A stretch of 22,135 bases of DNA. Origin: a virus. The notes beneath the pieces are model-generated. The model was not told the DNA's origin and searched no databases. It saw only the letters and a list, made by a program, of their open reading frames with translations. Positions 1-22,106 of this stretch are shown here, piece by piece. The position numbers and the translations under genes were made by a program. How positions within the stretch are numbered: position 1 is the stretch's first letter; each line of letters opens with the position of its first letter. The DNA lies in IMG/VR virus record IMGVR_UViG_3300020267_000342, positions 1 to 22,135 of that record, one strand, 5' to 3'.

Positions 1-93
1 ACCAATTCCAGTCATCAAGGCAGGAACAAGTTTACTTCCTCCCTTGACAGCTGCTGCAGCAACACTTTCTTGGAACTGATTAAATGTTTTCAT
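1..93 (-). CDS. 5' end of an unidentified phage gene (MKTFNQFQES... N-terminus), truncated by window edge
   Basis: Only the first 31 codons are visible, reading MKTFNQFQESVAAAAVKGGS and continuing to a Gly codon at the window edge. The start is fixed by the TAATG junction: the last A of the preceding gene's TAA stop is the first A of this ATG, a one-base overlap typical of translational coupling. A short purine run (AGGG) lies about 15 nt upstream, too far for a convincing ribosome-binding site, so coupled re-initiation is the likelier mode. N-termini of the form MK-[ST]-F-x-x-F-x-E recur, as I recall, at the start of several unrelated structural proteins in marine T4-like phages; their role is unknown to me. 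The Ala/Gly-rich stretch after residue 10 could be an amphipathic or membrane-active helix, but too little is visible. No function is assigned. Confidence 0.75.
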   Translation of the reverse strand, partial: MKTFNQFQESVAAAAVKGGSKLVPALMTGIG

Positions 94-3000: not shown

Positions 3001-6000
3001 CTAACGTCAATATTCAATAACTGAGAAGTTGCTGAATATGTGTCCGATGGTGCAGGTCTTGAACGATCATAGATATCGATTTCATATTTTTCAACAAAAA
3101 CTGAAGGAGATCCTAATCCAGCACCAACATCAGGACGATTAGTATCACCATATTTGTGATTTGGTGCTTGTAGTTTTACATATCCTATTTGCACACCATC
3201 CTGTATGATACGAGCATTTTCATAAATTATAAATGCACCTGATGACATACTTATTTCAACTAATTTAGGAACAATATCTGGAGTACCGTTATCTAGATAA
3301 TGATAATGTCTAGTTGTTGCTTTTAATCCATTTGCAGCAAAATAAACATTCCTAGATCTCATATAAGGATCCGCTTCACCAGTTATCTTAACATCTTCAA
3401 TGTAATCATACTCTCTTGCACTACCTTCAAGAACATTAGTAAACGCTGTTTCAATACGAGTAGTATTTGTTGTAGTGGTTGTAGTGATTATTTCTCTGTC
3501 TGACAAATCGTTCCAGAATTGTCCCCTTCTTTCAACATCAACATCAGTTTCAGTTGTTGTTTCTCTTGAAACAACATTTGCTTGCTCTACCCACCTATTA
3601 CCAGTTGACTCTGTTCTTACATTATCAATATAAATTGTTCTTGCCCAGTTATCAGAAGGGGGATCAATTATCACTTGACCAGCAAAGGCAATAACCTCAA
3701 ATGGGTTTACATTCTCTTTTGTTGTTGCTTGTGGTTGATCTAACCAATCTACCTCAGTATAATTAAGAGTAATAAGATCTCCAGTTTTTTTACAATTCGT
3801 ATCTAATAATTGTAGATTTGAATTTATATCAGCAAGATCAGTATCAATCGCAGGATTAACTGCAAGTTCTGCTCTCATTGACCAAAAATCAACCGCACTA
3901 ATTAATTCACGATGAAATACATCTACATCACACCTTGAACCACCATCTGTATCAAAATTGATAAAGTCTCTATTTTTAAAATTGTTTACAGCAAAACCTG
4001 ATTTAAATCTATCTAATCCGTCAGCATCTCTTACTTGGAATGATTTAGTATCAAGTTCAAGGGCATTTAATGTTGTTACTGTTTCTAAGTTTATAATTCT
4101 TTTCTCAAGTGCACCAATATCTCTCATCGTAAATCTACGATTATCTTTCATAATAATTGATGGTTGAGTATCAACATTATAGAGATATGGAGGTAGTATT
4201 ATCTCTGCAATCTCCATAGATGGTCCTAACTCTGTAGGTGCAGAAGGGTCATCAGATGATTCACCTTTAATTAATTTTACTTCCTCAAATTGGTTGATGA
4301 CTAACTTATCAATTCTTGGTAGATAGTAACTAAATCCTAATATAGAACTTTCATTTGGTGTTATGATATATGGATTTTCATATACAAATGATCGATTTGA
4401 AAATGCAAATGGTGATCCAGTATCAGAGGCAGGATCATAGTCATTAACAATTGGTCTAAAATCTAAAAGATCTGATGCCCTATCAGACACCACAGATGGA
4501 ACATCTTTTTCAAATCTGTCTGCACTATAAGAGTTGACTGTAAATACATCACCATTATCAGATGATGGCACTGAATATTTGTTATAAATTACAAGAAGTT
4601 TTTTACCTGGTATTGGAGAATTATCTTTTCTGATTAATTTTGAAATACCAGTGTATTGACGTTTATGATTTTTATCTAATGTATAATTTGTGGTTCTATT
4701 AACATAATTACCTGTTGTTATATTTTGTAGATTTGTTTGTATATTTGACTCTTTAAATTGAATTTGTTCACCAATAACAAATTTATTTGCATTTAAATAT
4801 ACAAATTCAATTTCATTAGATGTTCTTGAAACAATTTGTCCTACTGCACGACTTTCTTGCCCAACTAATTGTTCACCTATAATTGCATTAGTATTAAGAT
4901 TTAAACCGTTAATGAAAGTAAGTTTATCTAAAACTGCTTTGGATGTAGTTTTAGATTCATAAATTGCTATAATATTAACAACATCGGGTGTATTTAATGA
5001 TATCTCTTCATCTTCAACTCTTAAACCATAACGAACATCTTGTGTAAGACCTCCTGAAGTAGATATTCCAGCGGTTCTAGTCACCTCTAATTGTTCACTT
5101 CTTACAAATGATTTTTGTTTACTCTTAATGCCTACTTTTTTAAGTGTAACGTTAATAGTTACAGGACCAGCAGATAATCCACTAAATTCAATATCATTAT
5201 TTCCATTTGATAAAGTTACTTGATCTGAAGTTAATGGTTCTATAGATCCATCTGAATAATGTATAGAATATTTTTCTGCATCAAATGGTTCAAAGAATGC
5301 ACTTGTAATACCAGAGTTAGCAATAGCATCACCACTTGATAGTGTTGCTTTAGTATTAGTTACAGCAACATTTTTTACCTGTTTACTAATTATTAAATTA
5401 GAATTAGAAGTATCAACAATTGAAATATTCTTCTTTGGAAGTCTTGCAAATATACCAGTTTGATTTGCTTTAACTATTTTTGGAACTTTAATTGTGAAAT
5501 TTGTATTTAAAGTCGGTTGTCCAGATTGTATCGGAGTGCCATTCATGACACCACCAATATTTTGAGGAATACCTTGTAATTTAATTGTTGTTGCGTTAGT
5601 TATTTCTTCAACTCTTAAAAATACAGGATCAGCTGATGTATGTTTATATCCAATAATTGTTTCTGTTTTAATACCAACTTTACCAACAAATCTACGACCA
5701 GCAACTGTAGCTGTGTTTGTAGCAGTATTTCCAGATCCAGCGTCATATGTTAAAGATAATTCATCATTTATAGAAAAATTAGGTAAGATACGATCATAGA
5801 GTACAGCATCAGCACTAAAATCTTTTGCCAAACTACCTAAAGTAGTTGAATCTTGGAAGACTGACTTAATGTCATCAATCCCAAAAACATTTACTTCAGT
5901 AATTGATGCTCTTACGGTATGTAATTGCTCATCAAAAACAATTTCCTCACCTTCTATAAATTCTCCAGTGGTTTCACCAAGTGTAAGATGACCTGTTGCA

Positions 6001-7534: not shown

Positions 7535-9139
7535 TTAGAATTCGAGTATGATTTTAATGTCTTCCTTCTGTCGAGAATTTCTGACAATTATTGGTCGATT
7601 ATCCAAGTATACAATTTCTCCCGACCCTTTATTTATCTCAGGTTGAGATAATCCTCCAGTGAACTGAACTCCTAGATTAACGAGTTTACCTCCAGTTGGA
7701 GTTACAGAGGAGTCATTAAATGTGGTATCAACCGTTCCAGAGAACGCTGATGCTCCTGCAACTTTCTGTTCAATTAATTGAGATGATGACTCAAATTCAT
7801 ATATTCTACCGACTGTAGATATACCAAGAGCATCTGTGTGATCTTTTGTATTAGGAAAATTTAAAGATCTATCTCTAAAATATTTAAGTACTTTTGTATC
7901 CTTATCGAAAGAAGCGATATATCCATTCGCTACTTGACCAACATTTGGTGAAATAGAAAGTGTTTGAACTAATTCCTCTCCAATTTCAGGTGTGCCTGTT
8001 ACAGTATTACTAAATTTTATCGCTTGTAATGAAGAAAATGTTTGTTCTGTGTAAATGTTAGAAGTTCCAATTTTAGTTGGATTTTTTACAACACCTATTT
8101 GAGAAAATTCAGTGTCAATTGGAAAATCATTTGTTGAGTCATCAAATCTTGCATATATTATAACTTTGTCAGTTCCTAATTCAGTATATACATCAGAACC
8201 ATGACCTAATTTTGGTGGAATAATAGGAATTAATTTTGCTCTTTCATTACTACCAACAAGATTACTTAAATTATCAAGATCAACTACACCATAAGAGTAA
8301 CCTTTACCACCAGAACTCACAGTTGCTTTTGTAATTTTTCCATCAACAACATCAATCCTCGCTTTACCACCAGTTCCATCACCTAATATATCTACTTCAA
8401 AATCTGTTTTATTTGTATAATTAGCTCCTGCATTATCAATGTAAATATGTTTTATTTGATTGTTATTTACACTTGAATCACCATTCTCTCTCACCGCTCT
8501 GATTTGACTATCTGTGCTGGTTGCCCAATTATTAGGAACTGTAATATACTCTGTTGAGTCAAATTTAACAATATCACTTGGGGAAATGGTAAATAAGTAT
8601 TTCCAAATAAATCCGTCACCACTATTACCTGCTTTTGACGGTTCTAAATCAGTAAATGTGGGTTCATCTTGTGATACATTTCCTAATGGATTTGTACCTG
8701 TTGATCCGTTATCAATACAAATATAAACTTTAAAATCAGAGTTTAAAACATAGTAGTTTGCGTCATATAATCTATTTGATTTTGATAAAGGACTTTGATT
8801 TGATGCACTATAATCATCTCTATAAATCTCATATCTCTGCCCCTGAACCCAATCAACTCTCCTTATTATCCTTCTTATATTTGCAGACGAAACTTTTTTA
8901 CCAAAACTCATTGTATCACCAACATGAGCACGATAAGAAAAACTATCTATTGGTGCAGGAGTTTCTCCCTCATCATTCCATCCAGTTGTTCTACCAAATC
9001 CTACTCTACTAGTTCTCTCTGTTCCTTTTGGATTTGCTAATCCTACAAAGACATAGTATGAATTATTTGTATTTTCAACTGACTCTACAAAATTATTTGC
9101 GTTTAGAATTCTAAACTGATCAGTAACTATTGCTGGCAT
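7535..9139 (-). CDS. gp8: gp8-type baseplate wedge subunit, enlarged (534 aa)
   Basis: Homologue of T4 gp8, a wedge subunit that in T4 dimerises and binds gp7, gp10 and gp6. Landmarks match T4 gp8 (334 aa, recalled) in order: AIVTDQFR near the N-terminus (T4 AIVTSKFR), IRRVDWVQGQRY (T4 IPRRDWGDTRY), GDGFIWKYLF...EYITVPNNW (T4 GDGYVWEYLF...EYIVVPWPE), FSQIGVVKNP at ~346-355 (T4 FRQISIITNP), and the ending GEIVYLDNRPIIV...IILEF (T4 GEMIYMENRPPII...ILFTF). The extra 200 residues sit mainly in two places: a GxGY repeat module at ~228-286 (DNAGANYTNK, GGKGYSYG), and a beta module at ~370-500 containing GEELVQTLS...ANGYIASFD, similar to modules in the downstream giant protein. The start at 9139 follows a late promoter; only a weak AAGAG (9143-9147), three bases from ATG, could serve as ribosome-binding site. 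Its position after a gp7-like gene repeats the T4 order 7-8. Confidence 0.93.
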   Translation of the reverse strand: MPAIVTDQFRILNANNFVESVENTNNSYYVFVGLANPKGTERTSRVGFGRTTGWNDEGETPAPIDSFSYRAHVGDTMSFGKKVSSANIRRIIRRVDWVQGQRYEIYRDDYSASNQSPLSKSNRLYDANYYVLNSDFKVYICIDNGSTGTNPLGNVSQDEPTFTDLEPSKAGNSGDGFIWKYLFTISPSDIVKFDSTEYITVPNNWATSTDSQIRAVRENGDSSVNNNQIKHIYIDNAGANYTNKTDFEVDILGDGTGGKARIDVVDGKITKATVSSGGKGYSYGVVDLDNLSNLVGSNERAKLIPIIPPKLGHGSDVYTELGTDKVIIYARFDDSTNDFPIDTEFSQIGVVKNPTKIGTSNIYTEQTFSSLQAIKFSNTVTGTPEIGEELVQTLSISPNVGQVANGYIASFDKDTKVLKYFRDRSLNFPNTKDHTDALGISTVGRIYEFESSSQLIEQKVAGASAFSGTVDTTFNDSSVTPTGGKLVNLGVQFTGGLSQPEINKGSGEIVYLDNRPIIVRNSRQKEDIKIILEF

Positions 9140-9176: not shown

Positions 9177-12100
9177 CTATGAAAGTCCAAATACTCTAAG
9201 TGCACCTGTAGATCTAAGACCCCTTACTGAAGGATCTCCAAAGTATTTTCTTTGTATAGTTGGGAAGGTTGATAATCCCGCATCAACTGTTAATCCTGAT
9301 ACACCAATTGCAATTGGATTAGATGAACGTTTAAGATCATTTCCATATAATCTTCCCCAATGGAACTCACCAACAGAGGTTGTAAGTCCAATATTTCCAG
9401 GATCAAAGAAACCTTCTGTATTAATACCTGCTATTGAAGCATTACTATCTGTGTGGAGATGAACAGTTACTATACCGATTGCACCATTTTGATCTGGTGG
9501 GAATTGAACAATGTAAACATTATCAAGGAATTCAGTTCCAATACCGACTGTTCCACCTGCATTTGTACCAAATACTGATTTTGTTCCATTTCCTACTGAT
9601 GTTTTATTGACAAAAATTGGATATCCTTGCTTAAGAAGATTTGGTGTGTCTTGAATGGCATATTGGTTATTTTTATTTTTGGTAACTGCATAATAGAATA
9701 ATTTAAGTGCAGATGGATTAGAACCATTTCTATTTACCTGTTGAATGCCTGTAATTATACCAGTAAAACCTTGAACATTTTGAATACTTGTAATTTTTTC
9801 AGTTTCAAATATAGGATCTTCTATGATAACTTGTGGTGGATTTGATTGTGAATATCCAAAACCTGCATCAGTTATTGTTACAGTACTATCAATTGATCCA
9901 TTGACTACATTAATTGTTGCTGTTGCAGTTGTTCCAATACCGACTCCAACTTCAGGAGGACTGCTTATCTTAACACTAACTGTGCCACTATAACCTGATC
10001 CTGCCTCTGTAATATCTAAATCCGTAATAGTACCTGTAGCACTGACTATCGCTGTTGCTGCTGCACCTACATTAGTAGTCTCACCATTTGATATGAGTGC
10101 ATCAACTAGATTATCAGTTGATTGATTATACCTATCTTTTTCAAATAGGAATGATGTAGCATCATCAACGAAAATACCATCATCATTTCCTGTGCCTGGA
10201 CCATTTGTTGTTGTTAAATCACCAATTATTTTTGCAGTTGGGTAAATTTGTGGTTCAAGGGATGATCTTGTTTTTGGTATTATCTCTCCATTGATTATAA
10301 TATCTACCTTTTGTTTTTCAAATCTTACAGGTTTTTCATCATTCAGATTAATTCCACGACCTGTATATACGTCAGTTTCTACTTGATCTGCACCTAATAT
10401 TTGTTTGACAACACGATTGTTTTCTTGAGTTGAATTATCACCAAGAGTTGATATACCAATAGCATCATTTCTTAATACTCTAAATTGATCACCTGTTTTT
10501 ATTTCTTCTTGAATATCTTTAATTTCAACATCAACCCCATCTTGTCCTTTATAGAAGAAAATATCTACATGATCATGATCGTTTAGATCAGGACCTGACT
10601 CTGGACTTGGTGGTTCTTTAAATGTGAAAGTGGATCCACCCTCAAATTGATATGAAATGCCAGGTTGTTGTAATACACCATTTACAAAGATGAGTAAAAC
10701 AGCATCAAGATCAATTAATTGTGATTGAGTATTTGTGTCGTCTTTTTCAAAACTTAGAATTTGTCCGTTAAAGAATAATGGGAACCTAACTCTTGATCCA
10801 TCTTGTAAATTCTTAATATCATCAATATAATCAATTTCACCAAATTGCCAAGATGAGAATTTATCTCTAAAGGTATCAATTACTTCTAATTCAAATTCTT
10901 GTATTGGTTCAGTTAAATGTGCAGCAGTTACTAATCCTACTGGTCTGAATTTATCTCCCCTCTTAAATGAGTGACCTGGTCTAGAAATTTTGAATTTACT
11001 TATTTCAAATAATGTAGAACCAATACCAACTGTTGTAGATGATGCACCAACCTCAACATCAACAAGTAAGTTTACACCTGTATCAGTTGTAGTGCCAATA
11101 CCTATTCTTGATAATCCTTCAACCTCAAGATTTTCATAGATTGGTTCTGGAATAATCAGTTCAGGATTAACATAACTTGTACCAGCGGAGACAATATTGA
11201 ATGCTAAAGTTCCTCCAAGACCAACAGTTGCAGTTATATTTGCACCTGTTCCACCACCACCGCCTTGTCCAACAAAAATTGTTACTGTATTTGTTGTTGT
11301 AGATGTTATATCAGTAACGATACCAGCGATGGGATCTCCATTAGGATTACTTGTGATTGATACTGATCTTGGATATGGGTGGTTTCCAAAGAAATTATCC
11401 TTAGAGCATTTAAACACAATTCCGCCAGTATCAATACCAATTTTGTTACTGGTAGTTAAATTATGATTTGGTATTGTTAATATTAAATTACCTGTATGAG
11501 AAATATATTCTGCATTAGTTGCTGTATAGGAAGAACCGTTAAAATTACCTAATTTTATAGATCCAATACCTGCACTTACAAATCTATGTTCATAAGCAAT
11601 ATCTGTTACACCAATAGAAACTGTTGTTCCACGATATCCTGATCCAAAAGTATTATTTGAGAAGAACTCTATGGCATTACCACCACCCTCATAAGTATGG
11701 GCGATAGTGCTTGGTCCTGCTTGTACTTCAAATGATCTTTCAGAAACTATTCCTGTTAAGAATAACGGTCTTTCATGATCTTGGAATATTGTTGTGGTAA
11801 CACCACTGTATCCAACACAACTAAATTCCAGATCTTTTAAATGTACTGTGCTTGGTCTATTTGGTGCAAAACCGTGAACTTTCTCTGTTGTAACTGTTAT
11901 AATTCCAGTGATATTATCATAAGAAGCAGTTTGGATTCCTAAACTAATTCCAGATGTTGTCCCAATACCAACTACATCAGTAATTCCACCATCAGCATTC
12001 TTAAATAATGATGCCTTTGCACCAACCAGAGGAGCATATCCAAGACCTGGTGTTGATGCAAGTGATACAATGATACCACCTCTGGGCACTTGGTTTTGAT

Positions 12101-15100
12101 TTATATCAAATTCAGAGATAATAAATTGTCCATCTGCTGATGTAATTCCTGTAAATTGTACAGTCGAAATACCAGCAGTTGTATCTGCTATGATATTATA
12201 ATTACCATTTGGATTATTAGATGTTGATGGTTGTTGGAATATTCCATTAATGAATAACACACCATTACCTAAACCTATACCAGCGGAAGTATTAGCACCA
12301 CCTACTGTTAATGAATATGTTTTACCTATACCAGTAAAGTCATCAGAAACATCATCAAACAACATATTTGTTGTATAATTTGATCTTAAGAATGTTCTAC
12401 CACTAAAAGTTGCTTTGACAAATGGTAAATTTGTATCTGCTCTTCTTGATCTTTGGTTTCCTTTAGGTGGTTCTATAAAATGAACAGTGCTTCCGATAAT
12501 ATTGAATGAGCCTCTATGTATTCTCGCTTCATCATTTTGTGAATGTGAACTGGCAGGAATTCCTAGAACTCCTCTCTTAACTTTAACCACAGGTAATGTG
12601 CTAATTCCGAGAGAAACATCAGTTGCATCATTAATAGTGCCTTGAGGTAAACTTGCAAAACCAACACTTTCAATCGCCATAAATTCATCATTTACTTTTA
12701 AAATATCAGTAGGATTAATTGAACTTATACCACTTAAAACAAATTGTGAAGTTCCAGCACCAATATTTGCATCTAAATTATGAGCAATTTTTGTAAATGT
12801 TATCGGTTGTTGAACGACTCCATCTAATCCAATGATTGTTTTAGTGAGTGCTTTTGTCATTGTCAATTTGTGTGCATTTCCAGCACCAAATCCAGTCACG
12901 TTTATAGGTTGTCCAGATGCAACATATTCAGGTCGAGAAAATAGTTGAATATTATTTTCATCTGTTACTTTTGCATAAACTGTTGATGGTAATAAAGTTG
13001 TAACAACTCCTGCAACATTTGCTGTTGCACCAATTGATATCGCTGTAGCTGCTGTACCAATAAATGTTGAGTCTGGTGTATATGTTAATTGTTCATTTGT
13101 ACTAAAGAAATGATTTGGAATATTAAATGTTTCACTAACACCTAAACCTGTAGATGTTGTTGAAGATGGAACAAATGATTTTTCATAAATTGGTATATTT
13201 TTATACTTAAGATCAAATTTTGTTTTATTCGCTCTATTACCCTCTAGTCCATCAAATGTATCTAAGAAAAGTTTTTGAGTAACAGGTCCATATACAAGAT
13301 CATTTGGTGTATTGTCAAAATCACTTTGTGTGTAGAATATCTGATTAAATGCTTGAACTTCAATAAGTGATGTAAAATTAGAGTCTGGATAAAATTTAAG
13401 ATCAATATTATTACCATTAATTTCACCACCAAAAGTTCCAATACCAGAGGTTGATCCAATTGAAACAAATGGATACTGCACTGTCAATACATCATTATCA
13501 TCACGAATTGTTATAATTTGATGCACTGCTGATGTTTGACCAGAAGAAACTCTAACTAATGATTTTACACTTGTATCAAAATCTTTAAAGATAGATGCAT
13601 ATGTAATAACAGAATTAGTACCAGTATCATAATTTGATTGTAATCTAGCACTTCTTTCAGCACCTGCTGGTTGTCCTAATGCATTAAATCTATAAGTACC
13701 AATTCCAACAGTCGTTGTTCCAAGTCCAACTATATTTGAACGTGTCTCAAAATCATTTGCCCTATCGTTTATTATTTGTAATTTAATTAAATCATTTTCA
13801 AACTTTGCAGTTATGATACCAACCGCACTATTACTTGATGCTAAATTTTTATCAATATAAATTTGTGATAGTGAAGTGTTTGTTCCATCAAAATCAATAA
13901 TCACTTCATTATAATTTACATCTTTTGATACCGTATCTTCAACATACACTGTTGCAAAACAAGCATTAAAATCTGTTTTTGCAAATTCAGCGATTGTTGT
14001 AGTTACATTTCCAACTCCAGTAGGTGCTATCTTATTAATACCAAATAATTTTGTATTACCTATAATATTTGTTGCATTACTTGTTTTAGTAATATCAGGA
14101 TTTATTTTAAGAATTTTTAAATCATGATCTTTTGTAAATTTATCAACAGGTTCAAATAGTAAATTTTTAACATTTCCTGATGTTATGTCTGTTTTAAAAG
14201 ATCCGAGTCTTACGTTAGTAAAATCAGTTGATTTTTCAAATAATATGATTTTAGTTTGATCTGTTAATACAACTAATTCAGTGAATTGTGCATCATTAGT
14301 ATCTGGATCTATGATTTGTATCAAATAGTTTCCTAATTCTGCTGTTACTTGATCCAAAATTGTATCATCATTTGCAAAACCAACACTTGAAAATTTGTCA
14401 GAAATATCATCATGAACTAAAACACGATTAGATATACATCTTGTGAAATCTGTTAATGTTTTATTTGAAAATAATAATTGTTTAGATTTAAGATTACTAT
14501 TAGCATCTTCTAATACATTAAAATCTTTAACAAAATCAAAATTATTTGTAGCATCAACTCTTCTTGGATCATTGGTCAAATCAATTATTAAAGTTGATAC
14601 AGTGTTAATAGTTGTTCCGATTCCAACTTTTACATTATTTTTTACCTCAGTATCAGAAAAATTCTTCAATCCAGATGGGTGAACTAAACGATTTACAGGA
14701 TTTACTAATTGATCCCATACAATAGGACTTTTAATTGAATAAGATAAATTTTGATAGTAATCATTATCTGGTATTACCTGATAATCTTCACTTAATTTAC
14801 CAGTATCATCCAACCATCCATATTCTTGTCTACTTGAAAAATCAATATCGAATTTTGCTTTATTTTCATTTAAAGAAATAATTTCTGCGGAGGTTCCACT
14901 TATGTTACCAGTGATACGATCTGTTTTTTTAATTAATGTCAATCCATCAACTTTTACATAATCATCTCTTATTTCAACAATTGATAAGTCACTTTGTACA
15001 TTATTTACATTAAGATTTTCGCCTAAATCAAATTGACCTCTATTTTGAATGGGTCTGATATCTGGATACTTATCTTTATTGATTAAAATAGCAAAACCAG

Positions 15101-18100
15101 ATTGGAAAGTTTTTGCAATACCAGGATTAGTTGAGAGTCCAGCAATACTAAATTTAAGGACTCTAGGATTTGCATTTAAATAATCAACTACTTTAAAGAA
15201 CTGATAATTATAATTTTCTGAATTGAATCCATCTCCAAGTGTAGTTGTGCCTATACCAACACCACCTTGTGTTCCTATTCCTGCTTCACCTACTTGCAAT
15301 ATTCCCTCTACAAATACTTCATCATTTATTGCAAAAGGTTCAGTTGGAAAACCATTAGTTGGTGTTTCTAAGTAACAAGTAACAATTCCACTAAGACTGG
15401 TTTCAACAGAATTTATTCCAACTCCATTAGAATTATTGATTGCAACTACTCTATGTTGTATCGAGTCTAATCCATTAATGGGAGCAATTACTTCAACATC
15501 TGATATAGTTTGATTTGGTACAACAGCCTGTAATGAACTGTTATTTACGACAATGTTTTTAACAGGATTAAAAACTAATAAATCTGGAGCACTTGTATAA
15601 TCTAATCCACCACTGACAATATCTACTGATGTTACGACATCTAAATTATCAATATTAACAATCGGAGGTATAAATGCCTCTGGACTTAGTGTTTTGTCTG
15701 ATGAATATTCATAACCAATGTCTAAAATTCTACTTTTCTTAATCTTACCAATATCATTTGATAAAACTTTTATATTTGCATCTACACCAGTTTTACTTTT
15801 TATAGATTTAAATTTAGGAATTCTTTTGAAATTAAATCCAGAAGAAATAATTCTAAAATCTTTTATAGTTCCTGTAACATTTTTTGATGATGTTGAGTAT
15901 TCAATTTTATCACAATCGGTATCATCATATCTTAAAAACTCTGGTTCTAAAGGTGAAAAATCAAATGTTTCATCAGTAACATTAGAAATTTTAAATTTAC
16001 TATTATAAACACTATCAATAAATAAGATTTCATTATTATTTTCAACATCTGTATCAGTTGTGCTTATAAACCCACCCTTTGATATTCCATAATATAATTT
16101 TGTTGGTGTAGAATTAGTAAATTTTATACTTAATCTTGCACCCTCTGGATCAGTATTATTAGTACCAATACCAATTGTTCCAACTCCTACTACATTAAAA
16201 TCATTAGAGTCAACAGAACTATTATATTCATTAGTTAAATTTTGGTCATAGTATATTTTAAAATCAAATCCTGCTAAAGTAGTGCTTGAAATCCCAAATG
16301 TTAATTTTTGATTTTTTACAACTTTAATTTGTGGGTTTATTGGTGCAATAGATTGATTAGTACCAGTTCCAGCAGTGATAGGTAATAAGTTTACTGGAGT
16401 AACACTAACATCCTTCAGAGTTTTACCTAATTGGAAATATCTATCGTTAATTTTATATACAAAATACGATCCAGTTCCTAAACCAGTTGCATTACCGTCA
16501 TAAAAAACTTTATCACCAGTTTTAAATCCATGATCTTCAATATCAATACGATTAGTTTCTACATCACTTGAGGTAAAATCAATAGGGTTTATAATTAATT
16601 TTTCAAATTCTGAATTATATCTAACATCAATTGGTGTTGTTGTGCCTATACCTACAGATATGTTAGGTAGAACTGTCATATCTACAGTATCACCATTTTT
16701 AAGATTATGTGTAGTAGTTCCTGCAGCAGCAACTTTTGTTGTGACAGTGCTTATGATTTTATCAAAATCACCAGTTACTTGTACATTCTGTGCTGTAAGT
16801 TTATATAAATTTGTTCCAACACCTGTTACTCCTCCATTATTGAAGAAAAATAAACCTTCAGTTGTATTACCAACACCTGCAGATGTTGTAACAATACCTA
16901 TGTGATCTTCATCTTTTTTGATAATAAACACATCAGTTGTTGTTTCTCCTTGGAAAGGTAATGTAAATGTATCAGATGGAGAAGGAGTTGGTGAAACATT
17001 AAATTGTGAATTAGAACCAGCAATATCAGATGTTGATAAACCGACTTTTTGTCCTGTCTTAAATGGATGATTTGGAATGCGAATGGTTCTTGGTACAAGA
17101 CCTACTTCTGTTTTAAGATCTCCTATGAATGTATCTACTCTTTGACCAATACCTGTAGTGCCAACACCCACAGATTGTTTAGCGTTGAAGAATATAATAT
17201 CATTTTTACTAGACTCAAATTTCTTTGTTCTAACAGGTACAGTAAAACTATTAGTTAATGAATCAACACTAGAACCAAAAGTATGAGCAATTCCTGAATT
17301 TCTGAACACTCTTATCGCCTTATTTCTATTGAAAATATTAAGAACTTTTAGTGTTTCTCTATTATTTCCTTCACCAATTCTTAATGATCCACCAATTGAA
17401 ATGTTATTTGGTATTTCATTAACAAATATATCTTGTACAATACCATTTACATTACCAACTTCCATTGATTTTGCTAATCCAACAGATACTGTTGATAATC
17501 CAGCATTAAATGACCCTGTTAAATTAACTATGGTTGTACTTAGTCCAGAGATAACAACCGCATCTTGATTATCTATTTCTACAAATGGTAGATAATTAAC
17601 TTGAACTTCTTTATCAGAATTCCAAACAAATACTGCATTATTAAATGAACTTAATGAAGTTTCTATCTTAGATATTCCAATACCAACAATATCAGAAACC
17701 TCTGCATTAAATCCAGAACCTTCTGTTTCTGAATTATCAAATTCAGTAAGATCTCCAACTTTATAACCAGTACCACCATCTAATATTACAATATTATCAA
17801 TTATTCCACTATGAACTGATTCTACATTTGTAATTTGCTTTATTTCTTCATATGATTCAATAATAAAATCATTATCAGCAAATTTTTCACTTACATTATA
17901 AGGATATGTATTTCTAATCAAATTAGAATTATTAAAATCAAAATTTTGATCTAATGATATATTATCATTAATAAAAGGAGATCTATATGTATTACCTATA
18001 AAGTAAGGATAAATTGATTCTAATTTGTTAGATGAAGATCCTATTTCAACAGTTGCAAAATATGCATAGATACCATTTGGAAATTCAGGTGTTTTACAAA

Positions 18101-21100
18101 ATCTACCATTATGAATATCCAAATCACCACTATTATCATATATGTAATCATTTACAAAGAACCCTTCAGCAAACTGTGTAGGTCTGTTAAAAACCTTGGT
18201 TTGATCTTTTTTATAAGATGATTTAATGATAACGAGATCAGAATTAATATTACTTGGATCTTTATAACCAAATGGACCATATATTGGATTTCCATCATAC
18301 GCCCATCCAATTATTGGTGAATGTTTTTCTACTTTATCAAATTCATCATTTGGTTTCAAACTAAAGGTATCAGGTTCAAAGATTTTTACAGTATCCTGTG
18401 AGTAACCAAGTAAGTTGAATGCTAGTTTAGATGTTTTTTGCTCTAAATTAGTATCTCCATATCTTTGATTATTATTAACATTTAAACCACGTACTCTTGC
18501 CTGAAATTTAGCATTGATACCTGAAGATGTAACCTCTACTCTTGTAGTAAGACTACTGTATCCTATACCAGCATTAATTACGATTGCATCTGTTATCTGT
18601 CCATTCGTAATTACAGGTCTTACAATCGCTCCTGTACCCTCTCCAGTTGATATTACATTAATATCTGGTAGTGAATTATATTCAGACCCTTGGTTTGCTA
18701 CAATAACATCCGATATTTTTCCATTTACAATTATTGGTCTTAATTCTGCATTTTTACCATTAAGTATTTCAATCTTTGGATTAACTTGATGATTTAATAT
18801 AGTTGATCCATAATCAGTTCCTTTTTCATATAGGTATGAACCAATAATATTTCCAGTTACTAATGGTGTTATATTGATTGTTCCTGTAACATTAGTTCCA
18901 TAAGTTACCTGGACATTCACTTTAATTTCAGGATATGTAAATGTTTGATAACCTGTACCAGTTGATCCTAATCCAACAAATTCACCTCTGTTAAAATTAT
19001 CTTCACTTGATGCTAGTTTGAATGAATTATCGTCTATTTTCAAAACACGATAAGATGTGGTTGTAGATAATCCTTGAATATTTTTTGGTGTAGTTGATCC
19101 CAATCCTACAGTTGGAGAATATTCAATAACATCTCCATGATTAAATCCATGATTTTCAAAATTAATTGTATCATAGGTAGTTGATATTCCAGCTGGATTT
19201 ACTCTTAATTTTCGATGTTGATATCCAGAACCAGAATTTAAAACTTTGACATCTAATAAGGTGTTTACAGACTCAGTTCTAAATTTATGAATACCTGCAG
19301 ATTGTGTATCAGTTGCTATACCGATTGTATTGATACCTGCTATACCAGATAAAGCATCACTTTCTGTATTAAAAATTCTTATTGTTCTAGGATTAACTAC
19401 TCTAACAAAATAAGGGTCTCCATCAGATAATGTACCATTTATTTTATTAGTAACCTCATATGCAGTACCTATTCCTAATGAAGGATTTCCTTCATTTCTA
19501 TAAAATAATTTTTGACCATTTGCTAAATTATGATTATCATCAAAAGTTATTGTTTCATCATCTATATCTAAACTACCACCAAAAAATAAATTTCTACTAT
19601 CAAAAAATAAATCTCTAAATCTTGCACCTAAAATAGGTTTAAGCAAACAACCAGATCCATTACCACCTGTCAATGATATATTGGTAACTGACTCAATATC
19701 AAAGTCTTGAGGATCGACAAATATTTTTTTAACACTCCCCTCTATGATTGGTTCAACTAAAGCAGTTGTTCCAACACCTGTTTCTACCTGAATAACAGGA
19801 GGATTTACAACATCATAACCTGATCCACCATTTTGTAAATTAACTTGATCGATTGGTCCATAATAAATTATATCTTCTGAATATGGAGATTGTATTTGTA
19901 CACCATCAATTAATATACCAATATCATTAAATGGTCTCTCTTGTTTAGATGCTACAAATAAATTCTGTGATAATGGTATCTTACGTAATATTTTATTTGC
20001 ACTTAATTTTCTATTTGAGTGTTTTTGTAATATAAAATTATGATTAGTTGTATTTGATAACCCTACTTCTAACTGCACTGTGCTTGCAGTTCCAATTTGA
20101 CTTCTTGAATTATAAAATGCAAGACTTGTGACTTTTTGACCAGCAGGAACTGGTTGAGGATCAACAAAATAAACTCTACCCGAGTCTAATCCAACAATAG
20201 GATCTCCATCAGGTAAATAAACAACCGCATCACCCTGAATAAAATTAATATCTCTTGGTTGATTATTACTGTCTTTTGCAGTAACCGAAAAATTAATAAA
20301 ATTAAATCGATTTCCTGAAGATCCCTCTAAAACAGTTGTACCAACACCCAAGAAAGACTCTTTAATTATATTAGTGCTGATATCATAATCAGGTAATGAA
20401 TTAGAAGCAACATAACCATCTGTATCACCATCTGTATAAACGTTTAGTACGTTTGCTATGATTTTATCATCTCCCTCATCTAATTCTATACCACTACTAC
20501 TTGCCTTCTCTATTACACGACGAATATCATACTCTTGACCACTTATTAAACCTTGTTTTCCAGTAATAGTCGATAATCCAGTTATATTAATTGAATTATC
20601 ATTATTAACATCTTTAACTGTAAAGGTCGCTTGAACTTCCTGACTATTTCTTCTTAGAAGTTCAAATAAATCATCTTTTTTAATAGATGATTTATCAATT
20701 TTAGTTTTCAAAATGAATGGATCTGCGTCATTTTCAATCTTAAATCTTGAACTAGTATTGTATTTCCAAGAATTAGCAAATATTTGTTTATAGGTAAAAC
20801 CATTATTAAATATTTTTTCACCAACATTCTTAGAAAATATATTCTCACCCTCTGATACTAATTTAATATCAGACACTTCAACTAACTCGGATAATACTCC
20901 AGTGACTCTTAAATCAACTCTTTTCGATAAATCTCCATTTTCATAACCAAAAATAGTTTCATTTGCTCTTATATTATCTGCTTTTTTTATTTCTTGATTA
21001 ATACCAGTGCATCCAAAAAATTGATTAACAGATTTAGAAGTATAATTTATTGTATTTGATCCACTAATAATAGTTCCTGTAGTACCAAAACCTACTGTTG

Positions 21101-22106
21101 AGTCAACAGATATAACTGAGGAATTTACAGATGAGGCATCTAATGCTTTTGTTCTGCCTGGAATAGTAAATACACCTTGTATTAAATCCCTATCACTAAA
21201 TCCTACAAATAAGGACATTTTGAAGAAAGTTTTTCCATCTCTTGTAAATATTTCAACTTCAGAGACAGATGCATTTGTATTAAGATCGTCAGATTTAAAG
21301 ATTGTTTGACCAATTAAATTTTGTGGTAAACCACCAGGAGTTACGACATCTGCAACTATAACTTCTCTTCTTATAAATTCTGAACTTGATGGTTTAATTA
21401 AATTATTTTCTAAGTCTAATATTTTTGCTTCAACACCATATAATACTTTAAATAATATTCTTATTGATTCTTCAACACCTTTTGATTGGTAAAATGATCT
21501 TGCAAATTTAATAAAATTACCAACATCAAGTGTTTCTGTAAAATCATTTTTTTCTAAACCAGGCAAAAATGTTTTTTTGAGTTTTTTAAAAAATTCTTGT
21601 ATGAATAATACAGATAAATTTGTAACTGATGAATTATTATCGTGACTAGCCGCTGATGTTTCTTCAAATTTTAATTTTTCTTTATTAACCTCTAGTAATG
21701 ATGAAGACACACCAACATTATAACCTGTGATACCACTAAATCCACGAATACAACCAGTGAATGAATTTTCTGTTATTCCAGTATATGAAATTATTTCATC
21801 ATCAATTTTTAATAGTCCATATTCTTTAGGAAAACCCTTAGTGCTAGAAACATTAATGGTTTTATCGGTAACATCAACTGATGAAGTAATTGTAGTAACA
21901 CCAACTACAACTTCAGGAACAAGATTATCAACTTTAAGATATTGATCAAAATTATTAATTAAATCACCAGAACCTCCTTGAAATTCTTGTGAGATATAAT
22001 ATTGTTTGAAAAATTCTGAAACATTTGGAAAATCAGAGAGAACAAACTCAGGTAACTGATTTTCAATAATCGTGTTGACTTTTATTCTTTTGTCAATTTG
22101 TGACAT
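9177..22106 (-). CDS. Giant gp7-like baseplate wedge/tail structural protein (4309 aa) with YHYH-like domain
   Basis: A single uninterrupted frame encoding roughly 470 kDa. Residues 15-59 and 150-320 resemble the C-terminal third of T4 gp7: SKGVEESIRILFKVLYG against T4 TKGIEASYKFLFKVLYN, and NLIGQTIFK against DLVGQTIYT. A second gp7 block appears about 2,100 residues later at ~2445-2481 (DYYQNLSYSIKS..W..LV..V..LVHPSG; T4 has YYVMKIKS..PSSRW...I.FVHPVG). Between them are GxGY, HGFxxGD and GIGTT repeats and a YHYH-like domain (~1258-1356). After residue 2490 come a tandem beta-sandwich pair, NGxxQQP modules and conserved tail blocks such as FDDVSDDFTGIG and SEFDINQNQVPRGG, ending GEFHWGRLYG...LRVFGLS. 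The first ~750 residues of T4 gp7 have no recognisable equivalent. The ATG is preceded by GAGAGG nine bases upstream; the stop is TAG. By analogy it is the central wedge protein, probably with large outward arms; receptor contact is speculation. Confidence 0.88.
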   Translation of the reverse strand: MSQIDKRIKVNTIIENQLPEFVLSDFPNVSEFFKQYYISQEFQGGSGDLINNFDQYLKVDNLVPEVVVGVTTITSSVDVTDKTINVSSTKGFPKEYGLLKIDDEIISYTGITENSFTGCIRGFSGITGYNVGVSSSLLEVNKEKLKFEETSAASHDNNSSVTNLSVLFIQEFFKKLKKTFLPGLEKNDFTETLDVGNFIKFARSFYQSKGVEESIRILFKVLYGVEAKILDLENNLIKPSSSEFIRREVIVADVVTPGGLPQNLIGQTIFKSDDLNTNASVSEVEIFTRDGKTFFKMSLFVGFSDRDLIQGVFTIPGRTKALDASSVNSSVISVDSTVGFGTTGTIISGSNTINYTSKSVNQFFGCTGINQEIKKADNIRANETIFGYENGDLSKRVDLRVTGVLSELVEVSDIKLVSEGENIFSKNVGEKIFNNGFTYKQIFANSWKYNTSSRFKIENDADPFILKTKIDKSSIKKDDLFELLRRNSQEVQATFTVKDVNNDNSINITGLSTITGKQGLISGQEYDIRRVIEKASSSGIELDEGDDKIIANVLNVYTDGDTDGYVASNSLPDYDISTNIIKESFLGVGTTVLEGSSGNRFNFINFSVTAKDSNNQPRDINFIQGDAVVYLPDGDPIVGLDSGRVYFVDPQPVPAGQKVTSLAFYNSRSQIGTASTVQLEVGLSNTTNHNFILQKHSNRKLSANKILRKIPLSQNLFVASKQERPFNDIGILIDGVQIQSPYSEDIIYYGPIDQVNLQNGGSGYDVVNPPVIQVETGVGTTALVEPIIEGSVKKIFVDPQDFDIESVTNISLTGGNGSGCLLKPILGARFRDLFFDSRNLFFGGSLDIDDETITFDDNHNLANGQKLFYRNEGNPSLGIGTAYEVTNKINGTLSDGDPYFVRVVNPRTIRIFNTESDALSGIAGINTIGIATDTQSAGIHKFRTESVNTLLDVKVLNSGSGYQHRKLRVNPAGISTTYDTINFENHGFNHGDVIEYSPTVGLGSTTPKNIQGLSTTTSYRVLKIDDNSFKLASSEDNFNRGEFVGLGSTGTGYQTFTYPEIKVNVQVTYGTNVTGTINITPLVTGNIIGSYLYEKGTDYGSTILNHQVNPKIEILNGKNAELRPIIVNGKISDVIVANQGSEYNSLPDINVISTGEGTGAIVRPVITNGQITDAIVINAGIGYSSLTTRVEVTSSGINAKFQARVRGLNVNNNQRYGDTNLEQKTSKLAFNLLGYSQDTVKIFEPDTFSLKPNDEFDKVEKHSPIIGWAYDGNPIYGPFGYKDPSNINSDLVIIKSSYKKDQTKVFNRPTQFAEGFFVNDYIYDNSGDLDIHNGRFCKTPEFPNGIYAYFATVEIGSSSNKLESIYPYFIGNTYRSPFINDNISLDQNFDFNNSNLIRNTYPYNVSEKFADNDFIIESYEEIKQITNVESVHSGIIDNIVILDGGTGYKVGDLTEFDNSETEGSGFNAEVSDIVGIGISKIETSLSSFNNAVFVWNSDKEVQVNYLPFVEIDNQDAVVISGLSTTIVNLTGSFNAGLSTVSVGLAKSMEVGNVNGIVQDIFVNEIPNNISIGGSLRIGEGNNRETLKVLNIFNRNKAIRVFRNSGIAHTFGSSVDSLTNSFTVPVRTKKFESSKNDIIFFNAKQSVGVGTTGIGQRVDTFIGDLKTEVGLVPRTIRIPNHPFKTGQKVGLSTSDIAGSNSQFNVSPTPSPSDTFTLPFQGETTTDVFIIKKDEDHIGIVTTSAGVGNTTEGLFFFNNGGVTGVGTNLYKLTAQNVQVTGDFDKIISTVTTKVAAAGTTTHNLKNGDTVDMTVLPNISVGIGTTTPIDVRYNSEFEKLIINPIDFTSSDVETNRIDIEDHGFKTGDKVFYDGNATGLGTGSYFVYKINDRYFQLGKTLKDVSVTPVNLLPITAGTGTNQSIAPINPQIKVVKNQKLTFGISSTTLAGFDFKIYYDQNLTNEYNSSVDSNDFNVVGVGTIGIGTNNTDPEGARLSIKFTNSTPTKLYYGISKGGFISTTDTDVENNNEILFIDSVYNSKFKISNVTDETFDFSPLEPEFLRYDDTDCDKIEYSTSSKNVTGTIKDFRIISSGFNFKRIPKFKSIKSKTGVDANIKVLSNDIGKIKKSRILDIGYEYSSDKTLSPEAFIPPIVNIDNLDVVTSVDIVSGGLDYTSAPDLLVFNPVKNIVVNNSSLQAVVPNQTISDVEVIAPINGLDSIQHRVVAINNSNGVGINSVETSLSGIVTCYLETPTNGFPTEPFAINDEVFVEGILQVGEAGIGTQGGVGIGTTTLGDGFNSENYNYQFFKVVDYLNANPRVLKFSIAGLSTNPGIAKTFQSGFAILINKDKYPDIRPIQNRGQFDLGENLNVNNVQSDLSIVEIRDDYVKVDGLTLIKKTDRITGNISGTSAEIISLNENKAKFDIDFSSRQEYGWLDDTGKLSEDYQVIPDNDYYQNLSYSIKSPIVWDQLVNPVNRLVHPSGLKNFSDTEVKNNVKVGIGTTINTVSTLIIDLTNDPRRVDATNNFDFVKDFNVLEDANSNLKSKQLLFSNKTLTDFTRCISNRVLVHDDISDKFSSVGFANDDTILDQVTAELGNYLIQIIDPDTNDAQFTELVVLTDQTKIILFEKSTDFTNVRLGSFKTDITSGNVKNLLFEPVDKFTKDHDLKILKINPDITKTSNATNIIGNTKLFGINKIAPTGVGNVTTTIAEFAKTDFNACFATVYVEDTVSKDVNYNEVIIDFDGTNTSLSQIYIDKNLASSNSAVGIITAKFENDLIKLQIINDRANDFETRSNIVGLGTTTVGIGTYRFNALGQPAGAERSARLQSNYDTGTNSVITYASIFKDFDTSVKSLVRVSSGQTSAVHQIITIRDDNDVLTVQYPFVSIGSTSGIGTFGGEINGNNIDLKFYPDSNFTSLIEVQAFNQIFYTQSDFDNTPNDLVYGPVTQKLFLDTFDGLEGNRANKTKFDLKYKNIPIYEKSFVPSSTTSTGLGVSETFNIPNHFFSTNEQLTYTPDSTFIGTAATAISIGATANVAGVVTTLLPSTVYAKVTDENNIQLFSRPEYVASGQPINVTGFGAGNAHKLTMTKALTKTIIGLDGVVQQPITFTKIAHNLDANIGAGTSQFVLSGISSINPTDILKVNDEFMAIESVGFASLPQGTINDATDVSLGISTLPVVKVKRGVLGIPASSHSQNDEARIHRGSFNIIGSTVHFIEPPKGNQRSRRADTNLPFVKATFSGRTFLRSNYTTNMLFDDVSDDFTGIGKTYSLTVGGANTSAGIGLGNGVLFINGIFQQPSTSNNPNGNYNIIADTTAGISTVQFTGITSADGQFIISEFDINQNQVPRGGIIVSLASTPGLGYAPLVGAKASLFKNADGGITDVVGIGTTSGISLGIQTASYDNITGIITVTTEKVHGFAPNRPSTVHLKDLEFSCVGYSGVTTTIFQDHERPLFLTGIVSERSFEVQAGPSTIAHTYEGGGNAIEFFSNNTFGSGYRGTTVSIGVTDIAYEHRFVSAGIGSIKLGNFNGSSYTATNAEYISHTGNLILTIPNHNLTTSNKIGIDTGGIVFKCSKDNFFGNHPYPRSVSITSNPNGDPIAGIVTDITSTTTNTVTIFVGQGGGGGTGANITATVGLGGTLAFNIVSAGTSYVNPELIIPEPIYENLEVEGLSRIGIGTTTDTGVNLLVDVEVGASSTTVGIGSTLFEISKFKISRPGHSFKRGDKFRPVGLVTAAHLTEPIQEFELEVIDTFRDKFSSWQFGEIDYIDDIKNLQDGSRVRFPLFFNGQILSFEKDDTNTQSQLIDLDAVLLIFVNGVLQQPGISYQFEGGSTFTFKEPPSPESGPDLNDHDHVDIFFYKGQDGVDVEIKDIQEEIKTGDQFRVLRNDAIGISTLGDNSTQENNRVVKQILGADQVETDVYTGRGINLNDEKPVRFEKQKVDIIINGEIIPKTRSSLEPQIYPTAKIIGDLTTTNGPGTGNDDGIFVDDATSFLFEKDRYNQSTDNLVDALISNGETTNVGAAATAIVSATGTITDLDITEAGSGYSGTVSVKISSPPEVGVGIGTTATATINVVNGSIDSTVTITDAGFGYSQSNPPQVIIEDPIFETEKITSIQNVQGFTGIITGIQQVNRNGSNPSALKLFYYAVTKNKNNQYAIQDTPNLLKQGYPIFVNKTSVGNGTKSVFGTNAGGTVGIGTEFLDNVYIVQFPPDQNGAIGIVTVHLHTDSNASIAGINTEGFFDPGNIGLTTSVGEFHWGRLYGNDLKRSSNPIAIGVSGLTVDAGLSTFPTIQRKYFGDPSVRGLRSTGALRVFGLS
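9815..10025 (-). repeat. Pair of GxGY repeat units near the C-terminus of the giant protein (residues ~4028-4097)
   Basis: Two units: DLDITEAGSGYSGTVSVKIS followed by TATINVVNGSIDSTVTITDA and GFGYSQSNPPQVIIEDP. They match the unit described at 18490-18840, with a GVGIGTT motif at the step between them. Divergence at the DNA level is large, so this is an old duplication rather than a recent tandem repeat. Confidence 0.75.
13330..13960 (-). repeat. Tandem pair of beta-sandwich-like modules (residues ~2716-2926 of the giant protein)
   Basis: First copy: VYVEDTVSKDVNYNEVIIDF, IYIDKNLASSNSAVGIITAK, then LIKLQIINDRANDFE and VGLGTTTVGIGTYRF. Second copy: LVRVSSGQTSAVHQIITIRD, VQYPFVSIGSTSGIGTFGGE, then NIDLKFYPDSNFTSLIEVQA. 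Strand order and the SxxGI[IG]xxxAxF/GxI...L.. pattern repeat. Weak sequence identity; the pairing is by pattern. Confidence 0.5.
14652..14924 (-). other. gp7-like core, C-terminal block (residues ~2395-2485 of the giant protein)
   Basis: Contains DRITGNISGTSAEI, then GKLSEDYQ, DYYQNLSYSIKS, a Trp 15 residues after the second Tyr, and LVHPSGLKNF. The order Y-Y-x4-I-x-S, W, V-H-P-x-G is that of the last conserved part of T4 gp7, where it follows the LVGQTIYT segment after about 70 residues. Here the same two segments are about 2,150 residues apart. Related DNxYYQxFSY...HPaG motifs occur, as I recall, in many T4-like phage structural proteins, so homology to gp7 specifically is likely but not proven. 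Confidence 0.6.
18039..18335 (-). other. YHYH-like domain inside the giant protein (residues ~1258-1356)
   Basis: KHSPIIGWAYDGNPIYGPFG at the start and NGRFCKTPEFPNGIYAYFAT at the end are hallmark halves of the YHYH domain, otherwise found in secreted or surface proteins of bacteria and eukaryotes. The domain-naming Tyr-His-Tyr-His tetrapeptide, normally upstream of HSPI, is not seen: the preceding residues read NDEFDKVE. The function of the domain is unknown. Flanks are the GxGY cluster (~1090-1205) upstream and a FDFNNSN-rich Asn stretch downstream. Confidence 0.75.
18490..18840 (-). repeat. Tandem GxGY beta-repeat cluster (residues ~1090-1205 of the giant protein)
   Basis: Three successive units can be aligned by eye: KGTDYGSTILN..VNPKIEI, then ELRPIIVNGKISDVIVANQG, SEYNSLPDINVISTGEGTGA, then IVRPVITNGQITDAIVINAG and IGYSSLTTRVEVTSSGINA. 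The unit is about 38 residues: a small-GxGY turn, a Pro, a V-x-V/I strand, a Gly-Ala step, then (V/T)NGxIxDxxIxNxG. Similar units recur near residues 753, 950, 1435, 2080-2180, 3633 and 4028-4097. Confidence 0.8.
20666..20695 (-). repeat. Perfect inverted repeat, 11-bp arms and 8-base loop, inside the giant gene
   Basis: ATAAATCATCT (20666-20676) is followed after 8 bases by its exact complement AGATGATTTAT (20685-20695). Only two of the eleven pairs are G-C, so an RNA hairpin would be modest in stability. It falls in coding sequence for the segment SSIKKDDLF. No T-run follows in the direction of transcription, so it is not a standard terminator; it may be chance in AT-rich coding DNA. Confidence 0.45.
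21147..22064 (-). other. gp7-like core, N-terminal block (residues ~15-320 of the giant protein)
   Basis: Residues 15-59 (ENQLPEFVLSDFPNVSEFF...) parallel T4 gp7 PDSYLLQDSNFEAF; residues ~160-230 parallel the helical stretch up to FKVLYN; residues ~258-300 parallel the LVGQTIYT beta segment. A beta module with IDDEIISYTGI (about 66-150) interrupts the helices. In T4 this part of gp7 packs with gp6 in the wedge core. The match covers motifs and spacing by eye only; a profile search of residues 150-320 against gp7 would settle it. Confidence 0.7.

Follow-up and report, generated by a model that had tools for sequence, protein, structure and literature searches.

The wedge protein gp7 belongs to the core of the T4 baseplate. 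In the literature on marine phages of the T4 type it is nevertheless placed in the non-cyanophage core (PMC3037559) or described as absent from pelagi- and cyanomyophages, with VrlC in its place (PMC7029224). The question of what becomes of gp7 in such phages is raised by virus record IMGVR_UViG_3300020267_000342, analyzed here as one stretch of 22,135 bases (the window). Its giant open reading frame (ORF), P0001, runs uninterrupted on the minus strand from position 22106 to 9177 (9177..22106) and encodes 4,309 residues. Residues 3–4287 are covered by the match to phrog_2885, "baseplate wedge subunit", and among the named phages compared, P-SSM2 has the closest protein, a gp7 of 5,195 residues annotated "baseplate wedge initiator" (about 50% identity). 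The sequence-only reading of this stretch had proposed a gp7-like wedge core split by about 2,100 inserted residues. The split is confirmed by colinear profile pieces, hhalign comparisons and joined segments, with 2,093 residues for the insert, and the architectural reading is supported. The ORF likely encodes the wedge protein gp7 (BW3) of a T4-type myophage resembling P-SSM2, a gp7 in which an insert at a second slot (slot 2) loops out of domain V and the inserts of both slots, together with a C-terminal extension, form peripheral arms. The earlier reading is refined in two points: there are two slots rather than one, and a structural model indicates that slot 2 sits inside domain V.

Read from its N-terminus, P0001 falls into six consecutive parts, all on the minus strand. 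Core piece A1 (residues 1–63, 21918..22106) is the start of the gp7 helical core, corresponding to T4 from about residue 647; it is defined by profile and by blastp, in which it matches the A1 pieces of P-SSM2, P-HM1, Syn1 and S-SSM5. It is followed by the slot 1 insert (approximately residues 64–168, 21603..21917), a small beta domain recognized as a 106-residue gap between profile pieces. Core piece A2 (approximately residues 169–315, 21162..21602) carries the KG..LFK helices and the first half of gp7 domain V, as found by profile, hhalign and blastp, the last matching it to the T4 core at an E-value (E) of 5.9e-6. The slot 2 insert (approximately residues 316–2405, 14892..21161) holds beta modules and a YHYH domain; its ends are approximate, and its length of 2,093 residues comes from profile arithmetic, the exact ends being uncertain by tens of residues. 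Domain V then resumes and, together with core piece B, occupies approximately residues 2406–2495 (14622..14891; profile and hhalign), with the pattern YYQ..S..IKS...W...LVHPSG. The C-terminal extension (residues 2496–4309 plus the stop codon, 9177..14621), which has a counterpart in P-SSM2, places about 1,815 residues downstream of the core and agrees with the roughly 1,800 residues first noted. Slot 1, with its 106 residues, and the assignment of residues 1–63 to the gp7 core go beyond that first reading.

The motifs of the two segments can be followed directly into T4 gp7. Segment A contains KGVEESIRILFK at residue 209 and LIGQTIF near residue 264, and segment B contains YYQNLSYSIKS at residue 2450 and LVHPSG at residue 2474; the T4 counterparts are KGIEASYKFLFK at residue 738, LVGQTIYT near residues 781–788, YYVMKIKS near residue 861 and VHPVG at residue 883. 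These positions bear out the noted spacing of about 70 residues between the segments in T4.

The homology was quantified against a T4-family core profile of 28 sequences covering T4 640–930, built from 24 of 30 loci that passed a motif filter and from four named phages. In hhalign, whose E-values for slices are those of single comparisons, slice 1–330 of the window protein aligns to T4 727–813 with 97.3% probability (E 1.9e-11), and slice 2400–2500 to T4 865–905 with 50.3% (E 1.6e-4), while 37 control slices taken from P0001 all stay at or below 9.1% (E 0.0036). Each segment thus matches a part of gp7 when compared separately, as the split reading implies, and the two matches are consecutive in T4 and more than 2,100 residues apart in the window protein. 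Since the match of segment B is weak when taken alone, natural intermediates were sought. Eight natural uninterrupted cores, picked for a phmmer match in one stretch, were combined into a second profile; they come from Ochrobactrum phage OC, Desulfovibrio phage 7757 and six IMG/VR contigs, the near-copies L174 and L176 being excluded. On the window protein this profile yields three colinear pieces (whole-protein E 3.8e-18): profile 5–60 on residues 8–63 (independent E-value, iE, 0.0096), profile 60–159 on residues 169–271 (iE 7.7e-5), and profile 221–284 on residues 2426–2490 (iE 2.9e-7). None of 442 reversed or shuffled decoys matches it.

In the T4-group phages Milchi (619–871, E 2.6e-13) and F86 (711–960, E 8.2e-11), the same profile matches gp7 in a single stretch each; T4 gp7 is matched over 646–758 (E 2.4e-7), and Aeh1 over 751–863 (E 4.1e-8) with a second piece at chance level. 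Compared as profiles, the uninterrupted cores align to the T4-family core over T4 644–901 (99.2%, E 2.1e-19). When A and B of the window family are joined, the alignment covers T4 647–906 (98.6%, E 1.4e-15, score 111.1) instead of the 727–813 obtained before joining; all 35 control joins, in which another slice takes the place of B, end at T4 813 with scores of 68.4–86.7. Furthermore, phrog_964, the T4 gp7 family, matches OC gp7 over 632–889 in a single stretch (E 2.3e-5), and T4 gp7 matches phrog_2885 (E 1.3e-4). Segment B lies within a match to phrog_26741 (E 4.3e-17), a family for which no function is given. Since T4 gp7 (E 1.7e-5) and the gp7-type protein L182 match phrog_26741 too, segment B is not claimed by an unrelated family. 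Among whole records, phrog_964 is matched in four of eight (T4, P-SSM2, S-SSM5 and OC) and in one of 14 control genomes, with no match in P-HM1, S-CRM01, Syn1 or Melnitz. PF23786 (Baseplate_wedge) reaches 16.4 bits over residues 191–229 of the window protein, below its cut-off of 27, and stands above cut-off in OC, L171, L182 and Melnitz.

The large N-terminal half of T4 gp7 had been described as having no recognizable counterpart, and T4 residues 1–640 indeed give no blastp match at E 1e-4. In OC and phage 7757 the core likewise forms the N-terminus, and the T4 front half is thus not common to the wider family. The core that T4 gp7 (1,032 residues; 5iv5 and 5hx2, with the Klebsiella phage KP1 variant 9f4a) has in common with the window, approximately T4 647–906, comprises the KG..LFK helices, domain V and the VHPxG block. 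T4 gp7 differs in carrying about 640 extra N-terminal residues, with a sub-threshold fn3 match at 7–89, and domain VI after the core, and it lacks both inserts. OC gp7 (631 residues) and the phage 7757 protein (586 residues) begin with the core and have the same blocks close together; unlike in the window, their core is uninterrupted.

Where slot 2 sits within the fold was approached by predicting the structure of L182, a natural relative (692 residues) whose insert has only 228 residues, using an alignment of 45 of 50 non-redundant short relatives; for the window, the alignment held the window and 85 relatives (of 86, L014 and L142 were excluded, and S-CRM01 was added). The L182 model has a mean predicted local distance difference test score (pLDDT) of 71.7, mostly above 90 in the insert and near 55 in the helical front. 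Its Foldseek search returns three matches at E ≤ 0.001, namely 5iv5 (8.9e-7), 9f4a (2.0e-5) and 5hx2 (6.5e-4), each of them an entry that contains gp7 and has chains as long as gp7. In the VIA comparison, 77 residues within model positions 135..452 superpose on 9f4a_A0 768..845 (Z 9.7, root-mean-square deviation (rmsd) 1.5), the first unrelated chain following at Z 6.5; T4 766–861 is gp7 domain V by Pfam. Since in this model the residues that flank the L182 insert form one domain V, the insert loops out of it. The L182 model thus indicates a place within gp7 domain V for slot 2; the halves of the domain would close into one fold with both feet of the insert on a single domain. The model of window residues 1–345 gives two Foldseek matches at E ≤ 0.001, both to gp7 (9f4a 2.7e-4 and 5iv5 6.0e-4). 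Its slot-1 domain (model positions 63–166) resembles phage VP1 (9in6_M, Z 11.0), the phage Chi tail tip (8vjh_A, Z 10.3) and JBD30 baseplate chains, the VIA scores ranging over Z 9.8–11.0. A resemblance of the same domain to S-SSM5 VrlC 2112–2231 was also observed (27% over 122 residues, E 1.7e-4).

The same split recurs at the same place in Syn1, S-PM2d081, P-HM1 and S-SSM5, as well as in S-CREM2 gp122 (1,937 residues), S-CRM01 (1,454 residues), Melnitz (896 residues) and DLP6 (1,288 residues); these split relatives differ from the window in the length of slot 2, which spans about 230 to 2,600 residues among them. P-SSM2 gp7 (AAX44489.1; phrog_2885) belongs to the same ORF family, with the same position and split (slot 1 106 and slot 2 2,127 residues), and has about 2,670 residues after the last profile match, compared with about 1,820 in the window; its GenBank record names it gp7, and the feature table does not describe the split. 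By profile arithmetic, slot 2 measures -21 to -25 in the T4 group, -5 in OC, +4 in phage 7757, 283 in Melnitz, 977 in S-CRM01, 1,476 in Syn1, 2,093 in the window, 2,127 in P-SSM2, 2,231 in P-HM1 and 2,596 in S-SSM5; the positions of the profile pieces give about 229 in DLP6 and 1,535 in S-CREM2. The slot thus ranges from no insert to about 2,600 residues. Among 167 IMG/VR ORFs with both halves, it is at most 30 residues in 23 (15 of them T4-like), 74–78 in 3, 227–334 in 68 and 2,065–2,150 in 73, and a further 48 ORFs have 977 (S-CRM01 itself) or 1,327–1,488 residues. The 167 come from four queries and the 48 from two more. Since both sets are redundant and query-chosen, with many contigs cut, these sizes show a range and not frequencies; the S-CRM01 query of viral contigs returned S-CRM01 itself and one relative. 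Among matching ORFs longer than 1,200 residues, some of them with a single piece, none has the pieces out of order (0 of 149 and 0 of 58).

Slot 1 occurs in the giant forms and in Melnitz. It measures 93–106 residues in most, 205 in two contigs and 603 in S-SSM5, and it is absent from all 92 T4-like and short-insert ORFs in which it could be judged, 9 of the 167 ORFs not being placeable. The slot 1 of S-SSM5 (residues 62–660) was seen to be enlarged to about 600 residues. In S-CREM2 ORF122 the split pieces lie at 163–236 and 1852–1921, and only 16 residues follow the B match; the insert and the C-terminal extension therefore vary independently. A separate observation concerns S-CRM01 gp7, in which a collagen-like GGQ repeat run at approximately residues 1390–1436, soon after segment B, ends the protein and matches tail fiber PHROGs.

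The expected filling of the insert, beta repeats and a YHYH-like domain, was recovered. The GxGY regular expression is found 12 times in the whole ORF, compared with 3.6 in shuffles (maximum 9), and a module profile, built from the GxGY modules themselves, places five modules in residues 733–1205 (18492..19910, minus strand). The YHYH domain (PF14240, residues 1256–1355, 18042..18341, minus strand) scores 91.6 bits at a cut-off of 25. Compared with the canonical histidine motif, it carries NGR and YAYF instead of the name-giving histidines. In a survey of ORFs of at least 900 residues, a redundant set searched with a pattern of our own making, all 187 of 187 matches have R or K after NG together with YAYF, YAYY or YCYF. 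A jumbo-phage survey predicts a metal-dependent hydrolase from conserved YHYH histidines (PMC7824862); with these missing, catalysis by the window domain is unlikely, and a catalytic YHYH hydrolase is unsupported. The domain is also present in the slot-2 region of Syn1, P-HM1, S-SSM5 and S-CREM2, and none was found in S-CRM01 or Melnitz at E 0.1. The same region of P-HM1 shows a sub-threshold match to a carbohydrate-binding module (22.8 bits, cut-off 26.2). Conservation was calculated at aligned positions only, from the 126 relatives left after four of the 130, with identities of at least 90%, had been dropped. The core pieces are 86%, 80% and 75% identical, slot 1 is 76%, slot 2 62% and the C-terminal extension 65% identical.

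The C-terminal extension is 48–51% identical to that of P-SSM2 and gives one 77-residue match to Syn1 VrlC (E 1.2e-4). A self-blastp of the ORF found no repeats, and phmmer of the whole ORF against the PDB returned no gp7, the best match being 5wtr_A over residues 1484–1567 (E 0.0044). A search of the window record with PF21379 led nowhere, and no control matched. Sub-threshold Pfam matches were seen at P0001 residues 1846–1887 and 3797–3826, to an endosialidase beta-barrel domain and DUF4183.

The gene neighborhood is consistent with a wedge protein. All three large ORFs of the window lie on the minus strand. Directly downstream of P0001 stands the gp8 wedge protein P0002 (534 residues, 7535..9139), assigned by PF09215 (E 9e-14), phrog_438 (E 2.7e-159) and 66.5% identity to P-SSM2 gp8. 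It is followed by a structural-type DUF4815 protein (2,479 residues, 93..7532; PF16075, E 3.5e-50; phrog_358, for which no function is given), which occupies the position of the genes annotated VrlC in relatives. In P-SSM2, gp25 and gp6 directly precede gp7, giving the order gp25-gp6-gp7-gp8. For the window, the gp8 side is seen in place and the upstream side, beyond the window, is supplied by relative contig L017, which is 96% identical to the window over segment A and has, upstream of its gp7, ORFs of 651 and 133 residues (the sizes of gp6 and gp25) that match the baseplate-wedge PHROGs 219 and 261. With gp8 downstream, and with gp25 and gp6 upstream in P-SSM2 and ORFs of their size in L017, the window represents the baseplate operon of a P-SSM2-like T4-type phage; the virus infects bacteria and is probably marine. 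As a side observation, P0002 residues 214–283 and P0001 residues 1116–1214 both match phrog_460, labelled head closure Hc2; given the GxGY-type modules in both stretches, the label probably reflects a shared module.

In sequence, the ORF starts at the conserved core start (about T4 647), runs through the core helices, is interrupted by slot 1 and slot 2, and resumes at YYQ...VHPSG. By analogy with gp7-type proteins elsewhere, the core would associate with a pair of gp6 chains to build each of the six wedges; the descriptions of XM1 and Milano, which draw on the T4 baseplate by analogy, give a (gp6)2-gp7 scaffold (PMC10457771, PMC10811340), and T4 gp7 contacts are described in PMC3004832. The two slots and the C-terminal extension would form peripheral arms of beta modules and a degenerate YHYH domain, which may contact the cell surface or dock other adhesins. 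The Milano paper names gp7-type proteins as the attachment place of receptor-binding proteins in previously studied baseplates (PMC10811340). The gp7 orthologue of Vibrio phage XM1 (gp17, 242 residues) holds receptor-binding tail spikes through internal loop 80–106 and its C-terminus (PMC10457771), and an insertion domain of a wedge protein holds the long tail fiber in phage A-1(L) (PMC10966104). In XM1 short loops bind separate spike proteins, whereas the window has long chains within the wedge protein itself; XM1 loop 80–106 may be the counterpart of slot 1. On the simplest reading, the internal loops and C-terminus that serve as attachment places elsewhere have grown into covalent arms. Taking into account that wedge proteins of the gp7 class usually anchor receptor-binding proteins, the peripheral apparatus would here be covalently part of the wedge, and a host-contact role of the arm is plausible by analogy. 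Host contact is also, indirectly, suggested by the non-synonymous mutation that S-PM2d081, another split gp7, carried in coexistence with Synechococcus (PMC9910659).

Several observations weigh against this assignment and against exposed arms. Homology to T4 depends on profile comparison and on intermediates: Pfam Gp7_helical, Gp7_5th and Gp7_6th do not match P0001 even at E 1, nor does phrog_964 match the window protein at that level. The three Pfam models are also absent from the uninterrupted OC and L171 proteins at E 0.1, and are thus too narrow to define the wider family. Taken singly, segment B is only about 50% probable against T4 and piece A1 is weak, and in T4 and Aeh1 the B block is not convincingly reached by the uninterrupted-core profile. 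On the structural side, the L182 model has a whole-chain rmsd of about 25 to 5iv5 and 5hx2 and is tight only over domain V. The model of window residues 1–345 is of low confidence (pLDDT 62.5, predicted template modeling score 0.36), and gp7 is absent among its best 50 VIA rows, which are filled by the slot-1 domain. The loss of the YHYH histidines, and a conservation profile of slot 2 in 50-residue steps that shows no single hypervariable tip, also count here, and that the arm is extended, exposed or binding is itself our inference. Finally, in the coexistence experiment with the S-PM2d081 mutation, most of the early mutations were also in the deposited genome (PMC9910659).

Some of these points bear on an alternative in which the same split gp7 is kept, and the insert and C-terminal extension act as internal struts that knit neighboring wedges and the periphery into a scaffold. 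This is the main rival, possible although we consider it not probable. It would fit the nearly constant slot 2 in the clade of the window (2,065–2,150 residues in the 73 ORFs), the absence of one hypervariable tip and the lost histidines. Something else may frame the periphery, with gp11 in 0 of 7 and full-length gp10 in 0 of 7 non-T4 records, and wedge peripheries are also connected through globular portions of gp6/gp7-type proteins (PMC10811340). However, a slot 2 that varies between lineages from none to about 2,600 residues does so more than a conserved frame suggests, and conservation in slot 2 (62%) and in the C-terminal parts is lower than in the core (75–86%).

The peripheral genes were sought in eight records with phrog_967 (gp9), phrog_958 (gp10) and phrog_963 (gp11); gp12 was not searched for. 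The gp11 profile matched T4 and none of the seven non-T4 records. The gp10 profile matched four of the eight: T4 over the full length, S-SSM5 and Melnitz over an N-terminal piece of 42–43 residues, and P-SSM2 over a weak piece (154–250, E 1.8e-4) far from the baseplate genes, so that none of the seven non-T4 records gave a full-length gp10 match. The gp9 profile matched three (T4, S-SSM5 and Melnitz). With these PHROG profiles, P-HM1, S-CRM01, Syn1 and OC show none of the three proteins. Since OC, with its uninterrupted gp7, also lacks gp9, gp10 and gp11, the suggestion that the arm stands in place of gp10–12-like parts is weakened, and a simple replacement of gp10/gp11 by the insert loses ground with it.

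A fusion of gp7 with peripheral baseplate genes that are kept separate between gp7 and gp8 elsewhere appears improbable. It is suggested by additional ORFs that S-CRM01, Melnitz, S-SSM5 and Syn1 carry between gp7 and gp8 and that the window and P-SSM2 lack. The blastp comparison does not support it: of the eight ORFs in this position, none matches the C-terminal extension at E 0.01, slot 2 has only short modules (45–66 aligned residues each) in common with one of them, S-SSM5_096, and plain joining would not place 2,100 residues inside domain V. That segments A and B arose by convergence or represent generic phage motifs in an unrelated giant structural protein, as the unmatched Pfam gp7 models and the published absence of gp7 (PMC7029224) might suggest, is highly improbable and is rejected on the colinear three-piece match, the slice comparison, control joins and decoys, the graded intermediates, the gp25-gp6-gp7-gp8 position and gp7 as the top fold match.

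The names these proteins have carried are uneven. In GenBank, the proteins of P-SSM2 and P-HM1 are annotated gp7, that of S-CRM01 is gp7-like, and those of S-SSM5 and Syn1 as well as S-PM2d081 are "hypothetical". P-HM1 has a further ORF under the name gp7 baseplate wedge initiator, PHM1_095 (L004 30325–35001), which lies downstream of VrlC. Several giant gp7 relatives are filed in phrog_4406, phrog_701 and phrog_19630 under head and packaging as "virion structural protein"; these giants are probably baseplate wedge proteins. S-CREM2 ORF122 was detected in virions by mass spectrometry with 91 unique peptides, as "baseplate wedge protein, intermediate" (PMC10665884, Table 3). S-PM2d081 (LN828717 19530–28676; L366/L367), a split gp7 by profile with pieces at 161–280 and 1808–1870, is the "exceptionally large" hypothetical protein with a non-synonymous mutation in chemostat coexistence with Synechococcus, in which many other structural genes were hit as well (PMC9910659). 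A split gp7 is undescribed in the literature searched, which comprised titles, starts of abstracts and passages, with most subscription papers outside it, and this is not proof of novelty.

A broader conception is offered as doubtful: gp7 domain V would be an evolutionary docking slot of T4-type baseplates, at which phages grow arms for host contact as looped-out inserts in the wedge organizer, and cyanomyophages would have moved most of the host-sensing periphery, the gp10/gp11 side of T4, onto six giant gp7 chains. If this is true, surface contact and the contraction-triggering wedge are one polypeptide. Regarding the phages in which gp7 was taken to be missing, the results show that its core is present and interrupted mid-domain, and that large "hypothetical" or "virion structural" ORFs, such as S-PM2d081, are gp7. 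Proteins filling about 4 to 19 kb of these genomes thereby receive a named place in the baseplate, and what fills the insertion slot, now that it is defined, becomes open to comparison with host range.

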